Below, in pieces: positions 25,111 through 39,249 of a stretch of 39,305 nt of DNA. Both the position numbers and the translations under genes were made by a program. This DNA comes from a virus. The notes below the pieces were generated by a model. That model was not told where the DNA came from and searched no databases. It saw only the letters and a list, made by a program, of their open reading frames with translations. Location: the IMG/VR virus record IMGVR_UViG_3300014914_000013, positions 1 through 39,305 of that record; one strand, written 5' to 3'. The stretch's first letter is position 1, and the number at the start of each line of letters is the position of its first letter.

Positions 25111-25192
25111 CTTATTGGAGGTTTAGCGGGTTTCCTTAAATAAGGGGAGTGCTTATTGGAGGTTTAGCGGGTTTCCTTAAATAAGGGGAGTG
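25111..25192. repeat. 41-bp tandem direct repeat in the control region
   Basis: Bases 25111-25151 are repeated exactly at 25152-25192 without a gap. Each copy contains CTTATTGGAGG near its start and the near-palindrome CCTTAAATAAGG toward its end, and CTTATT/AATAAG can pair across the unit. Lying between a terminator and a regulated promoter, the two copies look like duplicated operator sites. Confidence 0.85.
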
Positions 25193-30099: not shown

Positions 30100-30518
30100 A
30101 ACAATTCACGGTTGACGACATTCTCACGCTCCGTCCGTGCGGATGGGATGGTGTGCACAATAGTAAGAACTATACGCATGAGCGACTTAATGAACTCTTC
30201 GCGGGGAGAAAGACTCTGACACTCGCGGACGTAGTTGATATGCAGGAAGTGCTGCCAGTGGACGTCGTGTGGCTTGCATGCCACATTTTCACTCCACGAC
30301 AGCGGGTGGTTTTTGCACTGAAATGTGCTGAAGATGCGGGTATAAGCGCATGGGAGGCGGCGCGTGCGGCATGGGCGGCGCGGGATGCGGCAGGGTATGC
30401 GCGGTATGCGGGGTATGCGGCGTTGGATGCGGCGTTGGATGCGGCGTTGGATGCGGCGTGGGATGCGGCAGAACGGCAGTTACTGTTCATCGCCGAGACG
30501 CTGGAGGAGGCGGAGTGA
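30096..30518 (+). CDS. Alanine-repeat 'immunity-like' protein, copy 1
   Basis: A 140-residue protein. Residues 1-85 are a conserved domain (FTVDDILTLRPCGWDGVHN … RQRVVFALKCAEDAG), followed by Ala-rich repeats (AALDAALDAALDAAWDAAE) and a short end AERQLLFIAETLEEAE. The plan matches proteins annotated as 'putative immunity protein' in phages and bacteria; their function is not established. Copy 2 lies at 32189. The ATG overlaps the previous stop (ATGA), in exactly the same GGGGAAAAACATGA context as copy 2. It is a duplicated gene on both sides of the mini-protein/amidase block. Confidence 0.7.
   Translation: MKQFTVDDILTLRPCGWDGVHNSKNYTHERLNELFAGRKTLTLADVVDMQEVLPVDVVWLACHIFTPRQRVVFALKCAEDAGISAWEAARAAWAARDAAGYARYAGYAALDAALDAALDAAWDAAERQLLFIAETLEEAE
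30417..30476 (+). repeat. 12-bp tandem coding repeat (GCG GCG TTG GAT)
   Basis: Three consecutive units of GCGGCGTTGGAT and one variant GCGGCGTGGGAT encode AALD/AAWD blocks. Tandem arrays of this type change length by slippage in steps of four residues, so copy number probably varies between relatives. Confidence 0.85.
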
Positions 30519-32192: not shown

Positions 32193-32728
32193 AACGATTC
32201 ACAATTAACGACGTTCTCACGCTCCGTCCGTGTGGATGGGATGGTGTGCACAACGGAGAGAACTATACCCGCGAAAAGCTGAACAGACTCTTCGCAGGAC
32301 GCCAGACCCTGACACTCGCCGATGTAGTTGATATGCAGGAAGTGCCACCCGCAGACGTCGTGTGGCTTGCGTGCCACATGTTCACACCACGGCAGCGGGT
32401 GGTTTTTGTACTGAAGTGCGCTGAAGATGCGGGTATAAGTGCATGGGAGGCAAAGTGGGATGCGGCGCGGGATGCGGCATGGGCGGCGCGGTATGCGGCG
32501 TTGGATGCGGCGTTGGATGCGGCGTTGGATGCGCAGTATGCGGCGTGGGATGTACGGTATGCGGCGCGGGCGGCGCGGTATGCGGCGCGGTATGCGGCGC
32601 GGGATGCGGCGTGGGATGCGGGGTATGCGGCGTGGGAGGCGGCAGGGGCGGCATGGGATGCGGCGTGGGAAGCCGCAGAACGACAGTTACTATTTATCGC
32701 CGAGACGATACTGGAGGAGGCTGGATAA
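32189..32728 (+). CDS. Alanine-repeat 'immunity-like' protein, copy 2
   Basis: A 179-residue paralogue of the product at 30096. The first 85 residues are nearly identical (FTINDVLTLRPCGWDGVHN … LKCAEDAGISAWEA) and the end AAERQLLFIAETILEEAG is shared; the Ala-rich repeat between them is about twice as long (AARDAAWAARYAALDAALDA and so on). The ATG overlaps the amidase stop by four bases. A longer upstream in-frame start at 32138 is rejected because it lies within the amidase gene and the copy 1 start matches 32189. Function unknown. Confidence 0.75.
   Translation: MKRFTINDVLTLRPCGWDGVHNGENYTREKLNRLFAGRQTLTLADVVDMQEVPPADVVWLACHMFTPRQRVVFVLKCAEDAGISAWEAKWDAARDAAWAARYAALDAALDAALDAQYAAWDVRYAARAARYAARYAARDAAWDAGYAAWEAAGAAWDAAWEAAERQLLFIAETILEEAG
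32446..32679 (+). repeat. GC-rich tandem coding repeat array in copy 2
   Basis: Twelve- and fifteen-base units of the form GCGGCG(T/C)(G/A)GGAT/GCGGTAT encode about twenty AA(W/R/L)(D/Y) blocks. The strict GCGGCG theme leaves long open frames in other frames on both strands, which are by-products of the repeat. Confidence 0.8.
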
Positions 32729-34304: not shown

Positions 34305-34994
34305 TTACTTCTTTTCCGACGCTTTTTTAACCACATTTGAAACCGTCTGCGCGTACCATTGCCGACCATTCTGCTTAGTCGGTATTCCATCAGCATTGAG
34401 AACATCCGCTATCTGCTGAAATTTAAAACCGTCCTCACGCATCCGCATGATGTAGTTAATGATTCTCACTTCCTCGGCCAGCACTTTGAGTTTACCGTCG
34501 GCGGCGGCACTATAGCCATACGGGACGCACCCACCAGTTTTCCTTCCCTGCGCCTTGAGGGCTGCCAGCGCATCACGAGTCCGTTCACTAATTAGCTCCG
34601 ATTCCATTTGGGCTATCGCCGCCAATATCGTAATCACAAACCGCCCCATTGCGGATTGTGTATCAAGCGACTCATTGATGGACACTAATGCCGTGTTCGT
34701 GCCTTGCAATATTTCAAGCATTGAGTACAAATCCAATACTGAACGGGTAAATCTGTCGAGCCTCGCCACTATGAAAGCCCCTACCGCCGCGGCCTTTGTT
34801 GCTGTGAGGGCTTTTTGCAGCTCTGGCCTGTCCCGACCCTTCTTCGCTGATTTTCCCGCCTCTGTGAAGACCTGCACCAATTCTACATCATGCAGTTTAC
34901 AGTACATTTTAATCTTTTCCTGTTGCGCTTCAAGCGATAATCCGCTTTCAGCCTGTTGTTCTGATGATACTCTGATGTAGCCGATTGCGTTCAT
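34305..34994 (-). CDS. Serine recombinase (resolvase/invertase family)
   Basis: A 229-residue enzyme. Catalytic Ser10 stands in IGYIRVSS, ARLDRFTRS lies at residues 77-85, and ITILAAIAQMESELISERTR forms the long dimer helix. The C-terminal part (GGCVPYGYSAAADGKLKVL to the end) is a short version of the recombinase domain and a helix-turn-helix, smaller than in large integrases. It could resolve genome multimers, invert a segment, or integrate the phage. The start overlaps the upstream regulator by four bases, so the two form a unit. No clear recombination site is seen nearby. Confidence 0.9.
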   Translation of the reverse strand: MNAIGYIRVSSEQQAESGLSLEAQQEKIKMYCKLHDVELVQVFTEAGKSAKKGRDRPELQKALTATKAAAVGAFIVARLDRFTRSVLDLYSMLEILQGTNTALVSINESLDTQSAMGRFVITILAAIAQMESELISERTRDALAALKAQGRKTGGCVPYGYSAAADGKLKVLAEEVRIINYIMRMREDGFKFQQIADVLNADGIPTKQNGRQWYAQTVSNVVKKASEKK

Positions 34995-35233
34995 TTTTCA
35001 CCTTCTTTCAGCATCGTCCCGCAGGCCGGACACTCGACTTCAACCCCAAGCACGTTGTAAATACGCCACTTCATTACGAGCGATGGATACCGCCGCCCCT
35101 GTTCGATCATGGAAATATATGTCAGTGATGCTCCTGCCTGTTCTGCAAGTTGGGCTTGTGTAATGCCCTTGGCCGTCCGTGCTCCTTTCACCTGTTCGCC
35201 GTACATTTGCTTGTAGTCCATGACAAAATTCAT
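34991..35233 (-). CDS. XRE-family regulator with zinc-ribbon end
   Basis: An 80-residue protein with a Cro/CI-type helix-turn-helix (KGITQAQLAEQAGASLTYIS, residues about 22-41) and a C-terminal CPACGTML half zinc-ribbon. ATG 35233 is preferred over an earlier ATG at 35293 because GGAGGGGGAG lies directly before it. Coupled to the serine recombinase by a four-base overlap, it may control that operon or act at the TGTCTCA sites; the target is unknown. Confidence 0.8.
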   Translation of the reverse strand: MNFVMDYKQMYGEQVKGARTAKGITQAQLAEQAGASLTYISMIEQGRRYPSLVMKWRIYNVLGVEVECPACGTMLKEGEK

Positions 35234-35264
35234 TTCTCCCCCTCCAGTCTCTTGTGTTTCAATT

Positions 35265-35372
35265 TTAATTTTTCCATTCGTTGTATTTTTCAATCGCCCA
35301 CACTCCCGTCAAAAACAGCATGACCAGCAGGGCGATCCATATCGACGCTATTTCCATGCTAATTTTTTCCAT
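35265..35372 (-). CDS. Single-helix membrane mini-protein
   Basis: A 35-residue peptide starting MEKISMEIASIWIALLVMLF with one clear membrane helix and a charged end (EKYNEWKN). GGAAAGGGGGAGAA precedes the ATG and has the same form as the leaders of the other genes in this operon, which supports translation. The ATG at 35357 is a possible later start. Longer frames upstream are not supported. Confidence 0.6.
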   Translation of the reverse strand: MEKISMEIASIWIALLVMLFLTGVWAIEKYNEWKN

Positions 35373-35784: not shown

Positions 35785-36189
35785 TTATCTGTTATCATAC
35801 GTCAGTCTTGCTGTTTCGTGCTCTAAAACAGCTTCGGTGACGTATAATACAGCCCGCTCGTACAGGTCTTTCACCTGTTCGCCGCTTGCTTCGGCTATAT
35901 TTTTAGCCGCAAAAAGCGTATTTAGAATCTCATGGTGTGTGGCGTGATTCAGGGCTTTTTTCAAAAGCTTCTCTGACGGGAGAGCATCTGCGAGAGTCCA
36001 CGCATCGGCCGCAAGCTTGCGACACATAATGCAAGTTTGCCCAAAGTTGAATATATCTTCAGCGACGGCTATGATGCTGAAGTCGTCGACGGAAGAGTTG
36101 GAAAGCAAATTGTTCAGGGTTTCCTTTGTACCATATCTGTTCATTGCAACACGCGCGTTCATCTTGCCCTCTTTTGTCATAATTTCCAT
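35785..36189 (-). CDS. Hypothetical helical protein
   Basis: A 134-residue Ala/Leu/Glu-rich helical protein with CIMC in the middle (NFGQTCIMCRKLAADAW). It begins at ATG 36189 behind the shared hairpin leader and overlaps nothing. No family is recognised. A second ATG at 36180 is close. Confidence 0.65.
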   Translation of the reverse strand: MEIMTKEGKMNARVAMNRYGTKETLNNLLSNSSVDDFSIIAVAEDIFNFGQTCIMCRKLAADAWTLADALPSEKLLKKALNHATHHEILNTLFAAKNIAEASGEQVKDLYERAVLYVTEAVLEHETARLTYDNR

Positions 36190-36220
36190 GATCTTTCCTC
36201 GTTTCCGCCCCGCTCGGGGC
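36190..36220 (-). promoter_or_regulatory. Hairpin-SD leader, copy 2
   Basis: Minus strand: GCCCCG-AG-CGGGGC hairpin (36207-36220) then GGAAACGAGGAAAGATC before ATG 36189. It is directly preceded by the 78-bp cassette at 36235-36312. Confidence 0.75.
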
Positions 36221-36234
36221 CTGTTGGTTTTTTG

Positions 36235-36312
36235 AAGCTTTTTAGGGTTTTTAACCCTTGTGGAAGCCGTGTCTTAATCGACACGGCAACCACAAAGATT
36301 AAGGACAATCAA
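36235..36312 (-). repeat. Intergenic hairpin cassette, copy A
   Basis: Identical over 78 bp to 38623-38700. The minus-strand RNA folds as a 13-pair lower stem (36251-36263 with 36290-36302), two-base internal bulges, and an eight-pair upper stem (GCCGTGTC/GACACGGC) with a six-base loop. The cassette starts at the TGA stop of the gene on its right. Three G-U pairs occur only in the minus-strand RNA, which argues that this RNA is the functional form. Confidence 0.9.
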
Positions 36313-36707
36313 TACCCGTTGGGACTGTTTTCTTTCAGCCATTCATCGAAAATATCTTCCGCGTTTTCATTGTACCATTCTACTACTCTACCCATGATAT
36401 AGCAGTAGATCGCCGCCATGCCGTTGTTCTCCCGCGGGTTCTCGCCCACTCCTGCGTATTCATAGGCCGCCTCGAGATCATTGCCGTGCAGATACCATGT
36501 TGTGTCTATCTCATGCGTGTAAATTGGCACGCTTGAGTCGACGATCTCATGGACTCCCCCGCCATAGTCAAGGTCATTATTGATGCAGGGTGGTTCGTCA
36601 GTGTCCGGGTTGTCCTCAAGATACTGCTTAAGCAGTCCTTTTACTTCCTCGACAGCCCCGTCTACACGGTCCTGCAATGTGTCTTCTACTTCAATAGTGC
36701 GTTTCAT
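36309..36707 (-). CDS. Hypothetical phage protein
   Basis: A 132-residue acidic protein with a long Tyr/Trp-rich central part (IDTTWYLHGNDLEAAYEYAG, YCYIMGRVVEWYNENAED). This pattern is known in small hypothetical proteins of many phages. It ends SPNGY at the TGA that opens cassette A, and begins behind a GC hairpin leader. Function unknown. Confidence 0.7.
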   Translation of the reverse strand: MKRTIEVEDTLQDRVDGAVEEVKGLLKQYLEDNPDTDEPPCINNDLDYGGGVHEIVDSSVPIYTHEIDTTWYLHGNDLEAAYEYAGVGENPRENNGMAAIYCYIMGRVVEWYNENAEDIFDEWLKENSPNGY

Positions 36708-36737
36708 AATTCTCCCTCTTTCCGCCCCGCTCGGGGC
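36708..36737 (-). promoter_or_regulatory. Hairpin-SD leader, copy 3
   Basis: Minus strand: GCCCCG-AG-CGGGGC hairpin (36724-36737), then GGAAAGAGGGAGAATT before ATG 36707. Confidence 0.75.
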
Positions 36738-36743
36738 TTTGTT

Positions 36744-37169
36744 TTATACCACTTTTATCTGCTTCCTGTTATTGCGCTTATATGTTCCCGGATCATCGTC
36801 ACCACGCGCCCGGCAGTCAAATCTTAAAATCTCGTGTTCATATTCACGCGCCCGTTCGATTAATCCGCTCAAGCCCTTTTTCATACTGCCCGTTATTTTG
36901 GTTCCGGCCTTTTCCAATACTTCAAATGCTTTAATCGCCCGGCGGCATTCTGCCGCTAATTTTACGAGATTCCGCCGCGCCGCCGTGTCTTGACTCAAGC
37001 CAAACTCAAGATCGAACAATTCACACTGAACCATTTCAGGTGCGAAGCGTTTCAATATTTGTCTTAATTGTGTTATTGTCATATCTCTTTTATCAATATC
37101 GTCGGCGCGTACCTGAAAACGTTCAGGTGCAACTGTTATTTCATTTATGTTCATTGTGTTTATTTTCAT
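36744..37169 (-). CDS. Hypothetical protein with FDCRARG element
   Basis: A 141-residue helical protein. The start MNINEITVAPERFQVRADD is faintly like the first strand of ParB-type domains, but no further ParB motif follows. The C-terminus has ILRFDCRARGDDDPGTYK, related to the product at 35359. ATG 37169 is chosen because AAGGG of cassette C lies eight bases upstream; an in-frame ATG at 37235 would sit inside the preceding gene's end and read through the cassette. Confidence 0.6.
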   Translation of the reverse strand: MKINTMNINEITVAPERFQVRADDIDKRDMTITQLRQILKRFAPEMVQCELFDLEFGLSQDTAARRNLVKLAAECRRAIKAFEVLEKAGTKITGSMKKGLSGLIERAREYEHEILRFDCRARGDDDPGTYKRNNRKQIKVV

Positions 37170-37173
37170 GTTC

Positions 37174-37236
37174 TTAACCCTTGTGGAAGCCGTGTCGATT
37201 AAGGCACGGCAACCATAAAGGTTAAAAACAATCAAT
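37174..37236 (-). repeat. Intergenic hairpin cassette, copy C (diverged)
   Basis: A third, diverged copy of the cassette. The lower stem is kept (37174-37186 with 37213-37225; a C-G pair replaces a G-U), and the upper stem is six pairs (GCCGTG/CACGGC) with a ten-base loop. As in the other copies it begins at the TGA of the right-hand gene (here ending PSGY) and supplies the ribosome-binding site of the left-hand gene. Confidence 0.85.
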
Positions 37237-37495
37237 ACCCGCTGGGATATAGCACGTCACCATTACCTAAATATTTGATCCTCGGCGGGTATTCGTTTTG
37301 TTCCAGAACCTGCTCCCATCTCCGGACAGTCATTTCAATGACTGTCCCCTCTTTTTCACAGTCAATTAGAGGATTCTCACACAAGTGTGAGCAGGTCTCA
37401 CACACTGTCTCCAATTCGCGCAACTCACCCGCCCTCAATGACTGTCTACCAGTCTTGTAGATCAGTACTGTTTTTTTCCCGTTTATCTTTTCCAT
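37232..37495 (-). CDS. Hypothetical Cys-containing protein
   Basis: An 87-residue protein with CETCSHLCENPLIDC, four cysteines in 15 residues, a possible metal site. The end RIKYLGNGDVLYPSGY shares the final ...GY-TGA with the product at 36309. It starts behind the hairpin-SD leader at 37496. Confidence 0.7.
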   Translation of the reverse strand: MEKINGKKTVLIYKTGRQSLRAGELRELETVCETCSHLCENPLIDCEKEGTVIEMTVRRWEQVLEQNEYPPRIKYLGNGDVLYPSGY

Positions 37496-37522
37496 GTTCT
37501 CCCTCTTTCCGGCCGTCAGGCC
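37496..37522 (-). promoter_or_regulatory. Hairpin-SD leader, copy 4
   Basis: Minus strand: GGCC-TGAC-GGCC hairpin (37511-37522), then GGAAAGAGGGAGAAC before ATG 37495. Sequence almost equal to copy 1. Confidence 0.75.
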
Positions 37523-37537
37523 TGTTGGTTAAAACTA

Positions 37538-37885
37538 TTAACATAAACTCCAGCCATAGGTTTGAGCGTAGGCGTCCGGCCAGTTGTTACACTGATCGCC
37601 GAAAACTAAATCCAAAACTTCAATTACGAGTTTTGCTTTTGTTTCAAATAAATAGTTCTCGGTGACTAAATAATGCGCCTCCGAAAAATCATACGTAGTT
37701 TCGCCGTATAATTCATGTTGTTCGCCCTGTTGAATCAGGTGTATTTCACCTCCATTCTTGCCCTTCTCTGAGCCGACCCAATTATCATCAGGTTCAAAAT
37801 CAGGACACGCCCTGTAGAGTTGCAAACTATCAAAATGGCTCATTGCCCAGTCTACTATTTTCTCTTTGTCTGCAATCTTTTCCAT
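37538..37885 (-). CDS. Hypothetical protein
   Basis: A 115-residue acidic protein (FDSLQLYRACPDFEPDDNWV … NWPDAYAQTYGWSLC). ATG 37885 is preferred to the upstream ATG at 37906, which would lie inside the leader hairpin region. No family is recognised. Confidence 0.65.
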   Translation of the reverse strand: MEKIADKEKIVDWAMSHFDSLQLYRACPDFEPDDNWVGSEKGKNGGEIHLIQQGEQHELYGETTYDFSEAHYLVTENYLFETKAKLVIEVLDLVFGDQCNNWPDAYAQTYGWSLC

Positions 37886-37914
37886 GTTCTCCCTCTTTCC
37901 GCCCATCTTGGGGC
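37886..37914 (-). promoter_or_regulatory. Hairpin-SD leader, copy 5
   Basis: Minus strand: GCCC-CAAGAT-GGGC hairpin (37901-37914), then GGAAAGAGGGAGAAC before ATG 37885. Different loop, same plan. Confidence 0.7.
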
Positions 37915-37930
37915 ATGGTTTTGTTGAAGC

Positions 37931-38578
37931 TTAATCTGCGGTTGTTTTTCCCGATTCTCTAAAAGACATCCAAGAATCGTGGATGTCCTGTGGCCTCAGC
38001 CCGCCGCGTTTTTTGAATTTGAAACGGTTCCAAGGGCCTTGGAAATTGAAAAGATCGATAATCTTTTTGCAGGCCTCACGCGATTCTTTTATTAATTCTT
38101 CGGGTAGCTTTTTCTGCGCGCAATTACGAATACTGTCGAGTGCTTGTCGAGCGCGTTCTCGAACCTCGCGAACCTCATCAGCGCGTGAACCATAAGTCTT
38201 TAAGAGACTGCCGTTAGGCTTTGTGTATGCTAACCAGTTGATGAGACTGTCCTCGGCCTGTTTTCTTATTCCTATTTTAGGCTCCGGGCGGCATGGGAAC
38301 GGCTTGAAGAAGAACTCAAGATCACAACCGCCGGCTGATACATGTGTTCCGTTGAGGCCTCCGTAATAACAGCTATGTTTCTCACATGTCTCGGCGTCTT
38401 TTACCTGTTTTTCGGCGAAGAACACTGTGGCCCTTATATCACCCAGAGCAGCTTGCGCCGCGCCATACGCTGTTTTATAGCTGCGAGTCGTGGCTGGATA
38501 TGTCCAGCCACCTTCAATCTTTATAATTGTGAATGGGGATTCTGACGATATTGTGAATTTCTCTGACAGATTTCTCAT
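37931..38578 (-). CDS. Hypothetical protein
   Basis: A 215-residue, largest non-recombinase product of the leftward operon. The first half has Trp/Tyr-rich strands and four cysteines (ETCEKHSCYYGG, GGCDLEFFF, FPCRPEP), the second half is basic and helical (REVRERARQALDSIRNCAQK). No family is recognised. It begins behind the leader at 38579-38609. Confidence 0.7.
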   Translation of the reverse strand: MRNLSEKFTISSESPFTIIKIEGGWTYPATTRSYKTAYGAAQAALGDIRATVFFAEKQVKDAETCEKHSCYYGGLNGTHVSAGGCDLEFFFKPFPCRPEPKIGIRKQAEDSLINWLAYTKPNGSLLKTYGSRADEVREVRERARQALDSIRNCAQKKLPEELIKESREACKKIIDLFNFQGPWNRFKFKKRGGLRPQDIHDSWMSFRESGKTTAD

Positions 38579-38609
38579 TATTCTCCCTCTTTCCGCCCCG
38601 CTCGGGGGC
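38579..38609 (-). promoter_or_regulatory. Hairpin-SD leader, copy 6
   Basis: Minus strand: GCCCCCG-AG-CGGGGC hairpin with one extra C (38595-38609), then GGAAAGAGGGAGAATA before ATG 38578. Directly preceded by cassette B. Confidence 0.75.
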
Positions 38610-38622
38610 TGTTGGTTTTTAA

Positions 38623-38700
38623 AAGCTTTTTAGGGTTTTTAACCCTTGTGGAAGCCGTGTCTTAATCGACACGGCAACCACAAAGATTAAGGACAATCAA
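38623..38700 (-). repeat. Intergenic hairpin cassette, copy B
   Basis: Identical to 36235-36312 over 78 bp. The similarity continues through the following leader hairpin and ribosome-binding site with few changes, so the repeated unit is about 118 bp and covers a whole intergenic region. It starts at the TGA of the 14-residue frame at 38697-38741. Confidence 0.9.
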
Positions 38701-38741
38701 GAGATGATGAAATGCTCTCCGCATTGCGGACATTCTACCAT
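38697..38741 (-). CDS. Fourteen-residue zinc-knuckle-like peptide (or gene remnant)
   Basis: The frame encodes MVECPQCGEHFIIS. Its ATG overlaps the stop of the upstream gene (ATGGTAG), a GGAGAA lies just before it, and its TGA is the one that opens cassette B, the same position where the genes before cassettes A and C end. This makes it look like a real reading frame, or the last codons of a longer zinc-ribbon gene that was deleted. Length alone makes it doubtful. Confidence 0.35.
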   Translation of the reverse strand: MVECPQCGEHFIIS

Positions 38742-39013
38742 TTCTCCATAAGATCCATCTCTATAATAATATCATTATATTCCAATTCGTCGCGCAGTGT
38801 TTCCGCCACGCGATGAAGCCATACCTCCCTCTGGCACGTCGGCGTACTGTCGAGCACGTCGTTCATCCAGCGCGTGAGCGCAAGCGGCGTGCCCTTTATA
38901 ATGGCAACGTCGCTGCCCTCGCGTTGGAGGGCGTCGAAATCTCGGCACAGCTCGCCCGCGCGTTCGGTGCCGCGCGCCCACACTACTATTTTTATTTTTT
39001 TTCCATTTTCCAT
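38735..39013 (-). CDS. Hypothetical protein, first gene of the leftward operon
   Basis: A 92-residue protein, MENGKKIKIVVWARGTERAG at the start, then CRDFDALQREGSDVAIIKGT; the beta-alpha-beta feel is weak and no family is recognised. It is the first gene after the promoter at 39067-39095 and has the leader hairpin with GGAAACGAGGGAGAAC. Confidence 0.7.
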   Translation of the reverse strand: MENGKKIKIVVWARGTERAGELCRDFDALQREGSDVAIIKGTPLALTRWMNDVLDSTPTCQREVWLHRVAETLRDELEYNDIIIEMDLMEKW

Positions 39014-39043
39014 GTTCTCCCTCGTTTCCGCCCCCCGCGGGGC
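39014..39043 (-). promoter_or_regulatory. Hairpin-SD leader, copy 7
   Basis: Minus strand: GCCCC-GCGG-GGGGC hairpin (39030-39043), then GGAAACGAGGGAGAAC before ATG 39013. The transcript from the promoter at 39067 would start about 17 bases upstream of this hairpin. Confidence 0.75.
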
Positions 39044-39066: not shown

Positions 39067-39095
39067 ATTATAACACTCGCTGTACCACGTGTCAA
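39067..39095 (-). promoter_or_regulatory. Perfect consensus promoter of the leftward operon
   Basis: On the minus strand TTGACA (39095-39090) and TATAAT (39072-39067) are spaced by 17 bp, all twelve bases consensus. A long A/T tract upstream (39096-39130) resembles an UP element. The context CACTTGACA also occurs at the 25214 promoter. Confidence 0.9.
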
Positions 39096-39178
39096 GTGTT
39101 TTTTTTTATTTTTTTTTATTTTTTTTGTTTTCCTCTATATTTCCCACGCGCGCGCGCAAGTTTTTTATTCCTTATATT

Positions 39179-39249
39179 GTAGTTGTATTTGTAGTTGTAT
39201 TTGTAGTTGTATTATGTTCTTTTAGGCTTTATTAGGCTTTTAGTATTTT
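39179..39249. repeat. AT-rich 12-bp and 10-bp iterons
   Basis: Two exact copies and one near copy of GTAGTTGTATTT lie head to tail at 39179-39214; TTAGGCTTTA and TTAGGCTTTT follow at 39222-39241. A CGCGCGCGCGC run stands at about 39147-39157. Together with the 9-bp array this gives a compact AT-rich iteron region between two divergent operons, a candidate origin. Confidence 0.8.

Follow-up and report, generated by a model that had tools for sequence, protein, structure and literature searches.

The phage and its leftward operon

The window, by which we mean the whole stretch of 39,305 nucleotides analysed here, comes from an unclassified tailed phage; the 39.3-kb contig has repeated ends, 56 nt built from a 9-nt tandem unit. 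Its rightward genes encode the terminase, the portal and further virion and lysis proteins. The leftward operon, which runs from g1 (39013) to a resolvase (34305), consists of small genes of mostly unknown function and includes an XRE-type regulator, g11 (34991-35293). The operon is read from a single perfect sigma70-type promoter (39095-39067); other promoter-like sites in the window occur at chance level only, and none was called inside any copy of the cassette described below. The features of the operon that concern us are as follows, in the order of transcription.

39067..39095, minus strand: promoter TTGACA-17-TATAAT with TG before the second hexamer, at the head of the leftward operon
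39014..39043, minus strand: leader of g1, GC hairpin and Shine-Dalgarno (SD) sequence
38735..39013, minus strand: gene g1, 92 aa; a different frame runs to the TGA of c2
38623..38700, minus strand: cassette copy c2, g1/g2 junction; identical to c1; hairpin 38639-38690
38579..38609, minus strand: leader of g2, GC hairpin and SD, after c2
37931..38578, minus strand: gene g2, 215 aa
37886..37916, minus strand: leader of g3, GC hairpin and SD
37538..37885, minus strand: gene g3, 115 aa
37496..37522, minus strand: leader of g4, GC hairpin and SD
37232..37495, minus strand: gene g4, 87 aa; its end, PSGY and the stop, lies inside the repeat
37170..37235, minus strand: cassette copy c3, g4/g5 junction; 85% identical, loop inverted; hairpin 37174-37225
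36744..37169, minus strand: gene g5, 141 aa; starts immediately after c3
36708..36737, minus strand: leader of g6, GC hairpin and SD
36309..36707, minus strand: gene g6, 132 aa; acidic, pI 4.05
36235..36312, minus strand: cassette copy c1, g6/g7 junction; hairpin 36251-36302
36190..36220, minus strand: leader of g7, GC hairpin and SD, after c1
35785..36189, minus strand: gene g7, 134 aa
35739..35769, minus strand: leader of g8, GC hairpin and SD

A second viral contig (L005) spans the joint and is 99.3-99.96% identical to the window. Because its operon is identical except for three extra 12-nt tandem units, L005 is the same phage and was ruled out as an independent relative. These units belong to a 12-nt tandem repeat (TTGTAGTTGTAT) at 39177-39213. 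Two other arrays of 12-nt units (ATGCGGCGTGGG-like) lie in the rightward genes (30344-30480 and 32422-32687), each preceded by one copy of a 273-nt duplication that is 85% identical (30086 and 32179), and two identical 41-nt units, each ending in the SD-like AAGGGGAGTG, stand head-to-tail in an intergenic region at 25111-25192.

The product of g6 is an acidic helical protein. Two weak sequence matches link it to T7 Ocr (E 0.0034 and 0.042), and a PDB fold search with its predicted model (pLDDT 91, confident) gave no significant match; g6 might be an Ocr-like protein, a weak likeness that the fold search does not back. Homologues of g6 were found in six other viral contigs and, among the genome contigs, in one metagenome-assembled genome (MAG) of the Verrucomicrobiota (L019), where repeats of the cassette kind are absent. 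Among these homologues the protein is conserved until about the residues preceding the final five, SPNGY.

Three copies of a cassette at gene junctions

All of c1, c2 and c3 are confined to this operon, share their orientation and sit at stop-to-start junctions; the genome contains no further copy. As the sequence-only reading of the locus had reported, c1 and c2 are identical, with 100% identity over 78 nt and 97% over 111 nt including the leader. The diverged third copy that it had noted is also present (85% identical), with its span now corrected from 37174-37236 to 37170-37235. Every copy does start at a TGA stop. The TGA of c1 ends g6 (PNGY) and that of c3 ends g4 (PSGY), and the homology between c1 and c3, with 13 identical nt (GGGTATTGATTGT), includes the stop codon and reaches into the end of the coding sequence, so that the cassette itself carries the stop. 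Three upstream frames had been said to end in this way; two of them are the genes g6 and g4, with their GY-stop ends, but the third, which ends in VECPQCGEHFIIS at the TGA of c2 (38698-38760), is out of frame with g1, which is the only ATG-started gene upstream of c2 and stops at 38735. This frame reads like a frameshifted gene, a relict end or a sequencing error. At the other side, the cassettes had been thought to end at the ribosome-binding site (RBS) of the next gene; c1 and c2 stop at AAGCTT, about 40 nt short of it, where the leader begins. Copy c3 extends to AACATG, the leader of g5 is gone, and the sole SD-like sequence of g5, AAGGG (37178-37182), lies within the 3' arm of the c3 stem.

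Duplication of the flanking genes was ruled out as the source of the repeats, since these genes are not paralogues (best E 0.05) and therefore could not have brought the repeats along. The arrangement might be explained by homology at gene boundaries, the cassette being kept so that whole genes can be exchanged by homologous recombination with their reading frames intact, which we regard as possible but rather unlikely. That c1 equals c2 over 78 nt though their leaders and flanking genes differ speaks for such exchange, as do the location of the stop codon within the repeat, together with the last codons in g4 and g6, and the possible relict gene end ahead of c2.

A separate leader module

A distinct leader precedes seven leftward genes (g1-g4 and g6-g8), that is, most of the operon genes, and consists of an A-rich stretch, a GC hairpin of 4-5 bp and GGAAAGAGGGAGAA(C)ATG or a near variant. 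It is at the start of this leader that c1 and c2 end; c3 has none. By eye, the second pair of the leader hairpin is G-C in g4 and g8 and C-G elsewhere, a two-sided change. None of the rightward genes carries the leader (some GC stem lies upstream in 4 of 36), and a search of the viral contigs for the leader pattern returned only the same phage.

The predicted hairpin

On the transcribed minus strand the cassette folds, as had been described, into a two-part hairpin. About 6 nt after the TGA begins a lower stem of 13 bp; a 2x2 internal loop (UU/UU) separates it from an upper stem of 8 bp, which is capped by a 6-nt loop, so that 21 pairs form in all. Compared with dinucleotide shuffles the three copies are markedly stable (z = -5.2, -6.6 and -5.4), and when all 62-nt folds of the genome are ranked by stability, they take places 1, 2 and 7 on the minus strand, c1 and c2 being at the top. 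A role in recombination alone would leave this strong RNA fold unexplained.

The core GCCGTGTC-N6-GACACGGC is palindromic, and with an XRE-type regulator within the operon, the cassette might be a DNA site, an operator or stoperator, to which a phage repressor, for example g11, binds. We consider this quite improbable, as the stem makes use of U-G pairs, its fold is more stable for the transcribed RNA strand (-35.3 vs -30.3; -31.9 vs -29.6), and the DNA palindrome is broken in c3. Better candidates for operators of g11 are a tandem pair of 30-bp palindromes (TGTCT...GAGACA), located at 114-173 beside the leftward promoter, within the control region.

In c1 and c2 there are two nearly equal folds, and an alternative 3' hairpin, GGGUUAAAAACCC, competes with the lower stem. 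The cassette might on this ground be a transcription terminator or attenuator, a reading that is highly improbable: no U-tract follows the stem, no terminator-like call was obtained at the hairpins, and the alternative hairpin is missing from c3. Comparison with Rfam gave three chance-level matches only, none covering the long hairpin and none above the gathering score.

Copy c3 differs from c1 at three stem positions, of which one turns a U-G pair into C-G and two produce mismatches. A pair change that keeps the stem had been claimed; c3 contains no two-sided change and has two broken pairs, and the covariation check on the stem, run within the window, revealed no compensation among the copies. 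The proposal of a repeated RNA module is therefore borne out by position, strand, fold stability and the use of U-G pairs, and not by covariation within the window. The loop of c3, UUAAUC, is the exact reverse complement of the loop of c1 and c2, GAUUAA. Replication errors are known to invert loops inside palindromes, and the inverted loop of c3 argues against a function of the loop sequence.

Three palindromic copies whose loop orientation varies, as with small inversions in hairpins, could also stem from a palindrome of the REP or MITE kind, either selfish or spread passively, with gene ends as its insertion sites. This origin is improbable, given that no target-site duplication is seen, that orientation and exact junction are always the same, and that no copy was found in other viruses or in 84,980 genomes, as follows.

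Search for the cassette in other sequences

It had been suggested that the cassette be sought in related phages, with different genes between its copies. The sole other carrier found is L005, the same phage. Searching the viral contigs for the core hairpin pattern returned the same phage only, and a looser pattern added one contig (L018), which was rejected as a chance match, its hairpin being unrelated and located between structural genes. No copy of the cassette was found in the genome contigs (84,980 genomes). A blastn search of the region against phage records yielded nothing, and the cassette alone yielded one chance-level match. Queries with the terminase, the portal, g2 and g7 likewise recovered no phage but this one. 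As no relative among the sequences searched carries this cassette, which counts against boundary homology, a swap at the cassette cannot be shown directly.

Gene exchange at unrelated elements in contigs with g6 homologues

Four of the contigs with g6 homologues (L007, L008, L011 and L012) contain elements that run from a stop codon to an RBS and are unrelated in sequence to the cassette. These contigs form two pairs of close relatives, L007/L008 and L011/L012, which were compared.

L007 carries four copies of another repeat, TGAGACTTGCAAGACTTG..., each spanning stop to RBS. The 1964 bp between two of these copies are missing from L008, whose blocks join in one copy, and L008 also lacks one gene that lies between two SD-ATG repeat copies. 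The L007 repeat has no stable fold (z = +1.7), and no stop-adjacent two-part hairpin follows the g6 homologue in L007-L010.

In L011 and L012 the common element extends from a TAG stop to GTGAGAAAATG, and the genes differ both before and after it. After g6 a stop-adjacent hairpin is retained and the next gene is different. These two elements, each present in both contigs, are two-part hairpins of 21 and 17 pairs that stand next to the stop, ahead of SD-ATG. Between the two contigs ten pairs differ, of which 6 are double compensatory changes, 4 are one-sided and consistent, and none is broken. When equally many changes were placed at random by simulation, all pairs were kept with P about 0.0008 and 0.001, whereas in the shuffles of the covariation tool itself the observed value was reached in 66 of 500 for one of these hairpins, both being comparisons of two sequences. 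The stop-to-RBS element at 2937-3090 in L011 and 3062-3208 in L012, flanked by different genes on either side, forms several strong hairpins (z = -7.0 and -5.4) that covary between the contigs.

The other block ends in L007/L008 and L011/L012 likewise fall at stops or at SD/ATG. Together with the 1964-bp difference, they favour boundary homology, although the survival of gene-preserving swaps alone would likewise place block ends at gene borders. Recombination at such junctions has happened in related contigs, and the swaps at unrelated elements make the boundary idea plausible by analogy. What these four contigs share is thus the presence of stop-to-RBS elements where genes are swapped, hairpins being one form of such elements.

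Comparison with known junction elements

RNase III sites of the T7 type are long hairpins between genes, some 20 bp in length and interrupted by an internal loop. At the positions that we take to be the early RNase III sites of T7, the folds are repeated intergenic hairpins. The cassette resembles these R sites in that its repeated hairpins lie between operon genes, upstream of the next RBS, and in its predicted fold of 21 pairs with a 2x2 internal loop. It differs in that its internal loop is a symmetric UU/UU, and inspection of the T7 folds revealed no sequence likeness.

In Cluster K mycobacteriophages, many non-structural genes have a short repeat, SAS, where their translation starts, and some of these also have a longer imperfect inverted repeat, ESAS, just upstream of it, the function of the system being unproven (PMC3203893). 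In a similar manner, the leader repeat occurs here only at the starts of leftward, non-structural genes, and the inverted repeats c1 and c2 precede a subset of the leaders. In contrast, the 13-bp GGGATAGGAGCCC of SAS is not matched here when up to 2 mismatches are allowed, the long inverted repeat starts here at the upstream stop, and c3 replaces a leader.

In the PeSL elements of T4-type phages, which lie between small genes and have been linked to gene shuffling (as cited in PMC4503421), a stem-loop is joined to an early promoter. The cassettes are alike in being stem-loops between small genes, but do not qualify as PeSLs because no promoter is called in them. A change of genes between elements from one related phage to another was observed here only at the unrelated elements of the contigs with g6 homologues. 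On our reading the cassette would act like the junction elements SAS/ESAS, PeSL and the T7 R sites, and its sequence places it in none of them.

A possible mechanism and its implications

The reading that we favour, to which we give a little under an even chance, is that the cassette is a cis-acting RNA module, probably an RNase III site, which segments the polycistronic leftward mRNA and has been copied by recombination. On the leftward message, which is probably early, the cassette would supply the stop codon of the upstream gene, followed about 6 nt on by the two-part hairpin. The hairpin, which lacks a U-tract, is most likely cut by the host RNase III, the evident candidate enzyme, or else acts as a stable boundary in some other way; each gene would then end up on its own piece of the message, structured at both its 3' and its 5' end, much as the R sites divide the early mRNA of T7. 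Since the SD of g5 is held in the c3 hairpin, translation of g5 would need cleavage, or opening of the hairpin by ribosomes finishing g4. Cases in which an RBS stays hidden until cleavage by RNase III are known (PMC5371410), and the layout of c3 would fit this. Recombination would have carried the sequence from one junction to the others, which would account for its three occurrences, and since it is repeated, junction-to-junction recombination is a likely second effect. In favour of segmentation of the mRNA by such a module are the confinement of the copies to junctions of one operon, the non-paralogous flanking genes, the strong folds on the transcribed strand, the single promoter with no terminator-like call at the hairpins, the compensatory changes in L011/L012 and the repeated hairpins of T7. 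Against it stand the lack of covariation within the window, the two broken pairs of c3, the two-sequence basis and the shuffle result of the L011/L012 comparison, the fact that the elements of L011/L012 share no cassette sequence, and the g6 homologues of L007-L010, which no such hairpin follows.

More speculatively, and in our view rather doubtfully, the cassette may belong to a general class of RNA modules that span stop to RBS in the accessory operons of environmental phages and evolve fast, with position and structure kept and the sequence replaced. If so, each module would end one gene with its stop codon, offer a hairpin for processing and supply the signals from which the following gene starts, and the genes would be exchangeable recombination units and separate mRNA-processing units at once. 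The accessory genes of phages, including those for counter-defence, turn over fast, and how they enter an operon without wrecking its expression is rarely clear. If an element brings along a stop codon, an RNA hairpin and a start region, this would account for the swapping of genes as well as for the expression of the newcomer. The L007/L008 and L011/L012 pairs allow this idea to be tested comparatively, and such an element could mark fast-changing gene cassettes in unclassified phages.
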